From the NCBI RefSeq assembly GCF_023555375.1, contig NZ_JAJSEE010000008.1, positions 1 to 64,000 of the forward strand: a stretch of 64,000 bases of DNA. The letters are read 5' to 3'. Under the pieces are notes generated by a model, which saw only the letters and a list, made by a program, of their open reading frames with translations, searched no databases and had not been told where the DNA came from. A program made the translations under genes and the position numbers. The first letter of the stretch is position 1. Each line of letters opens with the position of its first letter. The stretch comes from Guyparkeria hydrothermalis (GTDB taxonomy: Bacteria > Pseudomonadota > Gammaproteobacteria > Halothiobacillales > Halothiobacillaceae). Positions 2,350 through 5,613 of this stretch are shown in pieces.

Positions 2350-2385
2350 AAAAAGCCCGCCGGGTCGCCAGGACCGCGGCGGGCT
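2350..2385 (-). terminator. Terminator of the YedZ1-YedY1-MrpX operon
   Basis: Read on the minus strand, a 9-bp GC-rich stem (2377-2385 pairing with 2354-2362) is followed by five Ts. It lies just after the stop codon of the methionine-rich peptide gene and back-to-back with the groESL terminator. Confidence 0.8.
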
Positions 2386-2408
2386 CGAATGGGTCGAGAG
2401 TGGCGAGC

Positions 2409-2744
2409 TTACTCGCCCATGCCACCGCCCATTTCGTCATCCATCTCGTCATCCGTGTCCATGCCGTCCCGGTCCATATCGCCGTGACCCATTTCGTTCT
2501 TTTCCATCGCGTCCTGACCCATTTCGTCCTGGCCCATTTCATCGCCGGACATCTCGTCCCCCATTTCCTCGCGGGACATCTCGCCGCTGCCCATCTCGTC
2601 ATGGCCCATGGCATCCTTCTCCCCGTCCTCGTGGGACATGGCCAGGGTGGCGTAAACATCCTGCTGCATGGGCTCGGCCGCAATAGCGGCGGTGCCCATG
2701 GTCATCAGGCCGGCACAGATCATCGATACCGTCATTGTCTTCAT
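2409..2744 (-). CDS. mrpX: Methionine-rich periplasmic peptide (MrpX-like, MXKDX-type pentapeptide repeat)
   Basis: The 111-residue protein has a Sec signal peptide (MKTMTVSMICAGLMTMGTAAIAA, cleavage near residue 23). The acidic mature part of about 88 residues holds about 16 methionines and no cysteine. The Met residues recur every five residues in an MxxDx pattern (for example MGQDEMGQDAMEKNEM), like the 'pentapeptide MXKDX repeat' family. In Azospira suillum a similar Met-rich peptide, MrpX, is a sacrificial periplasmic scavenger of hypochlorite that YedY1 re-reduces. It is last in the minus-strand operon, 75 nt after the YedY-type gene, with GAGG 8 nt before ATG. Metal binding is an alternative. 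The function is inferred from composition and neighbours. Confidence 0.82.
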   Translation of the reverse strand: MKTMTVSMICAGLMTMGTAAIAAEPMQQDVYATLAMSHEDGEKDAMGHDEMGSGEMSREEMGDEMSGDEMGQDEMGQDAMEKNEMGHGDMDRDGMDTDDEMDDEMGGGMGE

Positions 2745-2776
2745 GGGAATACCCTCTTGTCGTTGTGCTCAATGGT

Positions 2777-2796
2777 GCATGGCGGCAGTGCCATGC
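2777..2796 (-). other. Intercistronic hairpin before mrpX
   Basis: GCATGGC (2777-2783) and GCCATGC (2790-2796) form a perfect 7-bp inverted repeat with a 6-nt loop in the 75-nt gap between the YedY-type gene and the Met-rich peptide gene. There is no T run, so it is more likely an RNA-processing or stabilising stem than a terminator. Confidence 0.4.
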
Positions 2797-2819
2797 CTCA
2801 GCGCAGCCGAGCCTGATGC

Positions 2820-3569
2820 TCAGCTGCCGCCGAACCAGTTGTACCCGCGGTCTTCCCAGTAGCCACCGGGGTACGTGTTGGTGACGAACAGCGCCTCGAC
2901 GTGCTTGGGATTCTTGTAACCAAGCTTAGTCGGCATGCGCAGCTTCAGCGGAAAGCCGTAGCGAGCGGGCAAGACCTGCCCGTCGAATGTCAGTGTCAGC
3001 AGCGTCTGCGGGTGCAGCGCGGTCGGCATGTCGATGCTGGTGTAGTAGCCATCGGCACAGCGAAAGCCGACGTATGGGGCCTCCAGATCGGCACCGATGC
3101 GCTCCAGGAAGTCCGAGAAGCGCACCCCGCCCCACTTGCCGATCGCGCTCCAGCCCTCGACGCAGATCAGGCGTGTCACCTGGTCGGTCTGAGGCAGGGC
3201 GCGCAGTTCGGCCAGTGACCAGGGACGCGGGTCGGCGACCCGGCCGCCGACCTGCAGGCGAAAACGCTCGCCGTCGACCGGCGGCACCTTGTTCAGAGGG
3301 TAGTAGGCGTTGAACGGGAATGGCCGGGTAATCATCGACTCGGGGTACGTCGGTGCCAGCTGCTCGGGATCGAACAGCCAAGCCTGCACGCGATCGTTGA
3401 ATCGAGAGACCTGCAGCAACGCCTTCTCGACGATCGGCTCGTCGCTGATCGAACAGCCGCCCAGCAGCGGCAACGCGCCCAGCGCCAGCGAACCACGCAA
3501 AAAACGTCGCCGATCCGGTTGTTCCGGCCCGATGTCCATCTGCCGCATTCGCTTGTGTCGATCGTTCAT
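2820..3569 (-). CDS. yedY1: YedY1-like molybdopterin methionine-sulfoxide reductase
   Basis: The 249-residue sulfite-oxidase-fold enzyme belongs to the family of MsrP/YedY, which repairs oxidised methionine in the periplasm. A twin-arginine signal (DRRRFLRGSLALGALPLLGG) lies near residues 19-38 and is followed by a Cys, so a lipoprotein form is conceivable. The molybdopterin-ligand cysteine is in RLICVEGWSAIGKWGG, and the C-terminal half carries the conserved PLKLRMPTKLGYKNPK segment. The start was placed at 3569 because AAGGAG lies 6 nt upstream; a start 8 codons earlier would overlap the cytochrome gene. It follows the cytochrome b gene by 13 nt. The likely substrate is the Met-rich peptide encoded just downstream. 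Confidence 0.88.
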   Translation of the reverse strand: MNDRHKRMRQMDIGPEQPDRRRFLRGSLALGALPLLGGCSISDEPIVEKALLQVSRFNDRVQAWLFDPEQLAPTYPESMITRPFPFNAYYPLNKVPPVDGERFRLQVGGRVADPRPWSLAELRALPQTDQVTRLICVEGWSAIGKWGGVRFSDFLERIGADLEAPYVGFRCADGYYTSIDMPTALHPQTLLTLTFDGQVLPARYGFPLKLRMPTKLGYKNPKHVEALFVTNTYPGGYWEDRGYNWFGGS

Positions 3570-3582
3570 GCCAACTCCTTGG

Positions 3583-4224
3583 TCATCGACCACGAATCAT
3601 GTGCAGCAGCGAACGCGGCACCAGCAGCGCCATCGCCACGTGGATCACCACAAAACCGACCAGGGCGGCCATCGTGACGAAATGGACGTAGCGCGCCGCC
3701 TCGTATCCGCCCATCAGCTCGCGCAGCAGCGGGAACTGCACCGACTTCCACAGCACCAGACCCGAGAGCACGAGCAGCACCAGGTCGAGGATCACGAGCA
3801 GGTAGGCCGCCCGCTGCACGGTGTTGTATCGGCGCGGATCGGCATGGGAGAGCCGGCCATGAAAGGCGGCTTTGAGGTCGGCGACGAATCCGCGCGGCGA
3901 GAGCGGGAAGAAGCGGTGCCACAACCGGCCGCTGGCCGTGTTGATACTCAGGTAGATCAACCCGTTGACGACCAGCAGCCACATGGCAGCGAAGTGCCAC
4001 AGGATCGCGCTGGCCAGCCAGCCACCCAAGGTGATCTCGTCGGGAAAGCGAAAATCGAACAGCGGCGAGGCGTTGTAGATCCGCCAACCGCTCATCACCA
4101 TCAGCACTACCGCCAGGGCGTTGAGCCAGTGGGTCAGCCGCAGCCACAACGGATGAACCGGCGGCACATCTCCGGCGGCCTTGCCGGTTCGAACCGAACC
4201 GGCCGTGATGGGCTCTGCGTTCAT
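3583..4224 (-). CDS. yedZ1: Cytochrome b561-type partner (YedZ1-like)
   Basis: The 213-residue integral membrane protein has four predicted helices (about residues 26-45, 70-92, 135-155 and 172-195) and histidines placed as haem b ligands (HPLWLRLTHW, ILWHFAAMW, ARYVHFVTM, VVIHVAMAL). It should pass electrons from the quinone pool to the periplasmic molybdoenzyme encoded next. It resembles the b561/thiosulfate-reductase-like YedZ1 rather than the ferric-reductase-like MsrQ of E. coli. The start at 4224 has AGGAGA about 7 nt upstream. It is the first gene of the minus-strand operon, about 70 nt below a GTAACC-N16-CGAA promoter. Confidence 0.85.
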   Translation of the reverse strand: MNAEPITAGSVRTGKAAGDVPPVHPLWLRLTHWLNALAVVLMVMSGWRIYNASPLFDFRFPDEITLGGWLASAILWHFAAMWLLVVNGLIYLSINTASGRLWHRFFPLSPRGFVADLKAAFHGRLSHADPRRYNTVQRAAYLLVILDLVLLVLSGLVLWKSVQFPLLRELMGGYEAARYVHFVTMAALVGFVVIHVAMALLVPRSLLHMIRGR

Positions 4225-4295
4225 GGGCGGTCTCCTGAAACGCGCTGTTGTCGAGCCAGCGGCCCGACCGTCGCGACGATGGACGTACCCTTTCA

Positions 4296-4321
4296 TTCGC
4301 CGCTGGCCGGCAGTTGGTTAC
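4296..4321 (-). promoter_or_regulatory. SigF-type ECF promoter for yedZ1-yedY1-mrpX
   Basis: On the minus strand GTAACC (4321-4316), exactly 16 nt, then CGAA (4299-4296, extended to CGAATG). This equals the sigma-F motif known from Caulobacter (GTAACC-N16-CGAA). An identical site drives the divergent sigma factor gene. Confidence 0.85.
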
Positions 4322-4380
4322 AGCCAGGGATCGATCGATGGCAAGGCGCGGCAAAAACCGGGGCGCCTACAATCGCGGAT

Positions 4381-4406
4381 GTAACCAAACCCATGGTGTG
4401 GGCGAA
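4381..4406 (+). promoter_or_regulatory. SigF-type ECF promoter for sigF-nrsF (autoregulation)
   Basis: GTAACC (4381-4386), exactly 16 nt, then CGAA (4403-4406). Transcription should begin near 4412. An in-frame ATG at 4406 would lie inside the -10 box, which argues for the downstream start at 4430. Confidence 0.87.
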
Positions 4407-4429
4407 TGGAGAGGCATGGTGGGGAGAAG

Positions 4430-4972
4430 ATGAGCGAGGAGGAGCTGCGGAGACGGTTGCTGAGTGGGCTGTCCGGGGACAATCGCGCCTATCACGCCTT
4501 CCTGGAGGCCACCGGCGACTTGCTGCGGCGCTACTTCCATCGCCGACTGGTCAGCCTGCCCGACGAGGTGGAAGACCTGGTCCAGGATTCGCTGCTGGCA
4601 ATCCACGACAAGCGCAAGACCTATGACCCGGCCCTGCCGGTCACCGCCTGGCTCTACGCGATCGCCCGCTACAAGCGCGCCGACCTGCTGCGACGACGAC
4701 AACGATGGGAACAGCGGACCGACTCACTGGACAAGGAAACGGCGCTGGAACCAAGCGCCCCCGAACACGACGAGATGGCGGGCCGAGATCTGGACCGGCT
4801 GCTCGCCCGATTGCCGGAACGCCAGCGCATGGCGATCCGGCACATGAAGCTGGAGGGACTGTCGGTCGCCGAGACCGCGCAGCGCACCGGCATGTCCGAA
4901 TCGGCCGTCAAGGTCGGCGTCCATCGCGGCCTCAAGGCACTGTCCAAACTGATCCAGGGGCAAAACGCATGA
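4430..4972 (+). CDS. sigF: ECF RNA polymerase sigma factor, SigF type
   Basis: The 180-residue group IV sigma factor has a region 2 (about residues 20-85, with DEVEDLVQDSLLAIHDKRKTY and the WLYAIARYKRADLLRR stretch) and a region 4 helix-turn-helix (about residues 120-172, LPERQRMAIRHMKLEGLSVAETA). It directs polymerase to GTAACC-N16-CGAA promoters, one of which lies just upstream of itself. GGGGAG lies close before the ATG. The next gene is its NrsF-family anti-sigma, overlapping by 4 nt (ATGA), the hallmark pairing of SigF systems that answer oxidative, chlorine or metal stress. Confidence 0.9.
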   Translation: MSEEELRRRLLSGLSGDNRAYHAFLEATGDLLRRYFHRRLVSLPDEVEDLVQDSLLAIHDKRKTYDPALPVTAWLYAIARYKRADLLRRRQRWEQRTDSLDKETALEPSAPEHDEMAGRDLDRLLARLPERQRMAIRHMKLEGLSVAETAQRTGMSESAVKVGVHRGLKALSKLIQGQNA

Positions 4973-5613
4973 AGACAGACGAACTGGTCTCCCTACTCGC
5001 CGCCGGCGAGGTAGCCGTGCCCCGACGCACGCTCCCGAGCCGACTGGCACTGGCCACCGCGGCTGGCCTGCTCGCAAGCACCGCCCTGATGCTGGGACTG
5101 CTCGGGATCCGATCCGACCTGCCGCAGGCGGCCATGGACCCGATGTTCTGGGTCAAGATCGGCTTTGCCGGCCTGCTGATCGTCGCCGGACTGGTCGCCA
5201 CCTGGCGACTGGGCCGACCGGGGGTCAAGCTGGGCAGGCTGCCGCCGTCGACCACCGCCATGCCGGTACTGCTGCTATGGATGCTTGCCCTCGCCTCGCT
5301 CGGCCAGGCGACGCCGTCACAGCGCGTCACCCTGCTGCTGGGCGAGACCTGGAGCAGTTGCGCCTTCCTGATCGCCCTGCTGGCCGCCCCGCTGTTGGCA
5401 AGCACGCTGTGGGCGATGCGCGGCATGGCGCCGACCCGGCTGCGACTGGCCGGCGCGGCCGCCGGGCTATTCTCGGGGTCGCTTGCCGCGCTGGTCTACT
5501 CGCTGCACTGCCCGGAAATGACCGCCCCCTTCATCGCCCTGTGGTACCTGCTCGGGGTCGCGATCCCGACAACCCTGGGCACCTGGCTCGGGCCGCGCCT
5601 GCTGCGCTGGTAA
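4969..5613 (+). CDS. nrsF: NrsF-family (DUF1109) anti-sigma factor
   Basis: The 214-residue inner-membrane protein has six hydrophobic helices (about residues 24-47, 59-80, 92-112, 124-145, 155-175 and 185-207) and a short cytoplasmic N-terminus (MKTDELVSLLAAGEVAVPRR). This is the NrsF/DUF1109 architecture. In Caulobacter and Azospira NrsF holds SigF at the membrane until oxidants act on it. Cysteines occur in the loops (SSCAFLIALL and HCPEMTAPF) and could be redox sensors. The start overlaps the sigma stop codon as ATGA, so the two genes are translationally coupled. A terminator follows within 30 bp. Confidence 0.9.
   Translation: MKTDELVSLLAAGEVAVPRRTLPSRLALATAAGLLASTALMLGLLGIRSDLPQAAMDPMFWVKIGFAGLLIVAGLVATWRLGRPGVKLGRLPPSTTAMPVLLLWMLALASLGQATPSQRVTLLLGETWSSCAFLIALLAAPLLASTLWAMRGMAPTRLRLAGAAAGLFSGSLAALVYSLHCPEMTAPFIALWYLLGVAIPTTLGTWLGPRLLRW

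Follow-up and report, generated by a model that had tools for sequence, protein, structure and literature searches.

The locus described here raises the question of whether five divergently arranged genes of Guyparkeria hydrothermalis form a defence module against oxidants in the periplasm. It lies in a stretch of 64,000 nucleotides, which was analysed as a whole (the window). An earlier note on this DNA had described yedZ1-yedY1-mrpX on the minus strand and sigF-nrsF on the plus strand as a complete module of this type. A reading-frame check of the window found all five ORFs at the coordinates and in the orientations given in that note, and the Pfam families agree with the divergent arrangement. 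'Complete' is a fair description, and modules of this kind are widespread and already published. We consider it quite probable that the locus is a SigF/NrsF (ECF16)-controlled module for methionine cycling in the periplasm, in which MrpX would act as the scavenger and YedY1/YedZ1 would ensure repair. The evidence obtained directly in this analysis consists of the genes, their families, their promoters, their conservation and their co-occurrence.

The minus-strand genes follow each other in the order yedZ1 (4224-3583), yedY1 (3569-2820) and mrpX (2744-2409). Just 3′ of mrpX, a stable hairpin followed by UUUUU (2352-2386, minus strand; -32.3 kcal/mol, z -3.15) is the probable intrinsic terminator of this operon. 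On the plus strand, sigF (4430-4972, 180 aa) and nrsF (4969-5613) overlap by four bases, ATGA, at 4969-4972. The start of sigF, previously listed at 4406, had to be moved: the ATG at 4406 sits inside the -10 element, so that the ATG at 4430, preceded by a ribosome-binding site (ggaga), is taken as the start.

SigF carries the Sigma70_r2/r4_2 domains of an ECF sigma factor. NrsF, the membrane anti-sigma factor, matches DUF1109/NrsF (PF06532, E 4.3e-69), which together with the ATGA overlap bears out the overlapping gene pair first read from the letters. Cys131 and Cys181 of NrsF are invariant in 38/38 aligned sequences. Mutation of the cysteines at positions 131 and 181 of Caulobacter NrsF is reported to deregulate the anti-sigma factor (PMC3511200, PMC8224329), and C129/C179 of Bradyrhizobium OsrA are described as their equivalents, C179 being required for the response to H2O2. 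Inducers reported for NrsF-type systems in relatives include Cr, Cd, Cu, H2O2 and singlet oxygen.

The recognition sequence described for ECF16 sigma factors is (T/C)GTAAC-N17-CGAA, mapped by 5′-RACE before bcrX in Brucella (PMC8315932). Exact matches occur twice in the window, compared with about 0.04 expected by chance. Both are TGTAAC-N17-CGAA and stand back to back in the yedZ1/sigF intergenic region: the copy at 4296-4322 (minus strand) would serve yedZ1-yedY1-mrpX, and that at 4380-4406 (plus strand) sigF-nrsF. A genome-wide scan of the 2.43 Mb genome used a looser pattern with the reversed pattern as control, and returned nine matches versus 10 for the control. Only the two copies of the locus, among these nine, start with TGTAAC, and they are also the only two with the N17 spacer and a divergent arrangement. 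A sigma-70 promoter for the module was sought and not found. Where NrsF and YedY1 are both present (35 loci), the motif lies on both strands in 29/35 and on one strand in 6/35. Because of the paired motif here and the 29 loci with both strands, control of both arms by SigF is well supported by sequence; co-occurrence of the genes and homology to Brucella BcrXQP/BcrS-AbcS, a system studied by experiment, point the same way. A separate observation concerns a locus (L047, genome G096) where SigF/NrsF is accompanied by ECF16 promoters on both strands and no YedY1 was found.

The Tat-exported molybdoenzyme and the cytochrome b announced in the earlier note were both recovered. YedY1 (249 aa) matches PF00174 (E 9.6e-29) and TAT_signal, and its Mo-binding cysteine, Cys136 by family position, is present in every aligned sequence. 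YedZ1 matches PF01292 (E 3.2e-25), as expected for a membrane cytochrome b of the cytochrome b561/hydrogenase type, and five His are invariant among its aligned relatives. The pair resembles E. coli MsrPQ, likewise composed of a Tat-exported Mo enzyme of sulfite-oxidase fold and a membrane cytochrome b partner. However, YedY1 is shorter, carries a lipobox and scores 66.9 bits against the MsrP equivalog (NCBIfam NF003767), so far under the cut-off of 207 that its substrate is not fixed by the family assignment. YedZ1, when tested for the MsrQ/ferric-reductase-type membrane domain, proved to be of the PF01292 type instead, and 'MsrQ' is therefore the wrong name for it; a true MsrP is encoded separately in the genome.

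The lipobox, [LVIA][TSGA]GC, occupies residues 36-39 of YedY1 (LGGC) directly after the Tat signal, and Gly38-Cys39 is found in 92/92 sequences; Asp at position +2 is rare (9/92). With such a lipobox conserved throughout, YedY1 is a probable membrane-anchored lipoprotein exported by the Tat route. In those parts of the literature on these systems that were available, we did not find a lipid anchor of the repair enzyme stated. The idea that a conserved hairpin in the yedY1-mrpX intergenic region might decouple expression of the two genes was rejected (mean z -0.2 across 69 such regions).

MrpX contains 21 Met in 111 aa (19%, in line with the approximately 18% noted before) and its N-terminus is signal-like by inspection, as anticipated for an exported protein. 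It has nine Met-Met gaps of five residues, a number reached by 0/20,000 shuffles of its own composition. In the mature protein, which keeps 16 Met, 9/15 gaps are of five residues, and the repeat units are of an acidic M-G/S-x-D-E type. Against the TIGR02953 (penta_MxKDx) profile it scored 34.6 bits as a protein and 28.4 in a genome search, below the cut-off of 41; no second MxKDx gene was found by searching its own genome with this profile.

The repeat region was then compared among seven members of the genus, four other family members and 61 named loci. The median Met fraction is 0.21 in all three groups, whereas the median Lys fraction is 0.06 in the genus, 0.20 in the other family members and 0.28 in the named loci, with median pI of 4.05, 6.3 and 9.4, respectively. 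The pI ranges of the genus and of the named loci do not overlap. Five residues is the commonest Met gap in nearly all MrpX compared and is kept in 7/7 genus members. Going by these medians, most Lys have been lost from MrpX of the genus and its acidic residues have increased, with the Met register kept. One genus member (L046) partly shows an MDKDEMGHDG pattern, which is intermediate between the Lys type and the acidic type.

We tentatively propose, as an idea that is plausible but on the doubtful side, a charge-inverted MrpX class in which cationic MxKDx units became acidic MGxDE units with the five-residue Met register and roughly 20% Met kept. The acidic type is not strictly unique to the genus: a distant locus (L162) encodes a Lys-poor acidic MSHDDG repeat, with Met every six residues, near a YedY1 relative and without the ECF16 promoter motif, so that Lys-to-acidic shifts may recur. 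General acidity of the proteome was rejected as the origin of acidic MrpX, the pI of mature YedY1 being 6.2 in the genus versus 5.8 in named relatives. The genome does encode an ectoine synthase, which leaves room for an explanation by salt. Lys itself can be chlorinated by HOCl and could hand the chlorine to Met. If the proposal is correct, Met spacing rather than Lys would be the selected chemistry, or else acidic MrpX would be suited to another oxidant or to a periplasm rich in salt. This natural variant, with scavenger Lys lost and Met spacing kept, allows testing of which residues matter.

The module is not confined to this genome. NrsF and a close YedY1 co-occur in the same 14/27 genomes of the family, including 7/11 in the genus. 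In named genomes, at least 589 stretches carry YedY1 relatives; the best 80 of them share 63-77% identity and belong mostly to Burkholderiales/Rhodocyclales, with some Pseudomonas, Enterobacterales and others. The yedZ1-yedY1-mrpX order repeats in dozens of beta- and gammaproteobacteria, and, where the contig reaches far enough, yedY1 is mostly followed by a Met-rich pentapeptide ORF. YedY1 stands without NrsF within the locus in 57/80 named loci (L051-L130, with short contigs among them), and other regulators therefore probably control the effector operon there. In one genome (G015, loci L035 and L142) the module is split, with roughly 11 kb between nrsF and the yedY1-mrpX genes.

The Azospira suillum PS SigF/NrsF-MrpX-YedY1 module reportedly has its source study in Melnyk et al. 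2015 (mBio 6:e00233-15). In this strain, which shares sigF, nrsF, yedYZ and mrpX with our locus, SigF is reported to activate mrpX and yedY1 and NrsF to repress SigF; a strain deleted for nrsF tolerated high chlorate better, presumably because it resisted reactive chlorine species (PMC5748585, PMC4623255). Azospira suillum PS is a perchlorate respirer, whereas the genome here lacks chlorite dismutase. MrpX here is also acidic and Lys-poor when set against the named MrpX compared above. Brucella melitensis BcrS/AbcS-BcrXQP is likewise divergent, with an ECF16 sigma/anti-sigma pair, a Met-rich MXKDX peptide, an MsrPQ-like pair and the same TGTAAC-N-CGAA motif, but bcrX is first in its operon and mrpX last in ours; HOCl induces both bcrXQP and bcrS-abcS, and both add to the resistance of the cells against it (PMC8315932). 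The locus is a real, well-supported member of this known system, to which it adds a genus without chlorite dismutase and, as modest novelties, the tentatively proposed charge inversion of MrpX and, for YedY1, a probable lipid anchor.

Judging from the homologous Azospira and Brucella systems, inner-membrane NrsF would hold SigF until an oxidant acts on its conserved cysteine(s), as mutants in relatives suggest. Released SigF would then transcribe its own operon and the divergent yedZ1-yedY1-mrpX from the paired identical promoters. The regularly spaced Met of exported MrpX would be sacrificially oxidised; this role, like oxidant sensing, is taken from relatives. We infer that the methionine sulfoxide of MrpX is most likely reduced by YedY1, the Tat-exported Mo enzyme with its probable lipid anchor, and that YedZ1 would pass electrons to YedY1 from the quinone pool. 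Hypochlorous acid would most likely be the main inducer. Points against this reading are that the inducers differ among relatives and that acidic MrpX lacks most of the Lys of the characterised peptides.

The same genes might instead answer metal stress (copper, chromate, cadmium), NrsF thiols sensing the metal, MrpX Met binding Cu(I) and YedYZ repairing metal-driven Met oxidation. Cu(I) sites usually space Met as MxM or MxxxM, unlike the gaps of MrpX, mostly of five (9/15). The metal reading draws on Caulobacter SigF/NrsF, with the same anti-sigma family, Cys131 and Cys181, the same promoter type and YedY in the regulon: there Cr and Cd are reported to trigger the response and ROS generators not to, Cu induces the regulon, MsrPQ-like genes included, and loss of sigF makes the cells sensitive to Cu (PMC3511200, PMC8224329). 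However, that regulon is centred on DUF2282/DUF692 genes in place of MrpX, and these are absent from the locus. The genome as a whole holds just two SigF promoters of the TGTAAC type, and in Brucella, whose gene set is the same, the response is to HOCl (PMC8315932). We hold metal to be an unlikely primary stress.

A general response to peroxide or singlet oxygen, not specific for chlorine, also seems improbable to us. In its favour, H2O2 and singlet oxygen are reported to induce the Bradyrhizobium ECF16 pair EcfF/OsrA, which controls three MetSO reductases. Since a genome search found no chlorite dismutase, (per)chlorate respiration is unlikely as a source of chlorine oxyanions in the cell, which also favours peroxide. 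On the other hand, HOCl oxidises Met far faster than H2O2, and HOCl is the oxidant linked to the most similar gene sets among those tested (Azospira, Brucella). A reading of MrpX as an acidic protein of low complexity, unrelated to the others and in the operon by accident, would be compatible with its score under the TIGR02953 cut-off, but is very hard to credit: it shares with the 61 named homologues its position, signal-like N-terminus, Met fraction (0.21 vs 0.21) and five-residue spacing, and 7/7 genus members keep these.

Beside the proposed methionine-cycling module, the genome encodes a SoxC-like protein. Its true MsrP scored 254.9 bits on a 155-aa fragment, over the 207-bit cut-off, and its Tat signal likewise ends with an LPGC motif (L023, C2 near 300,650).
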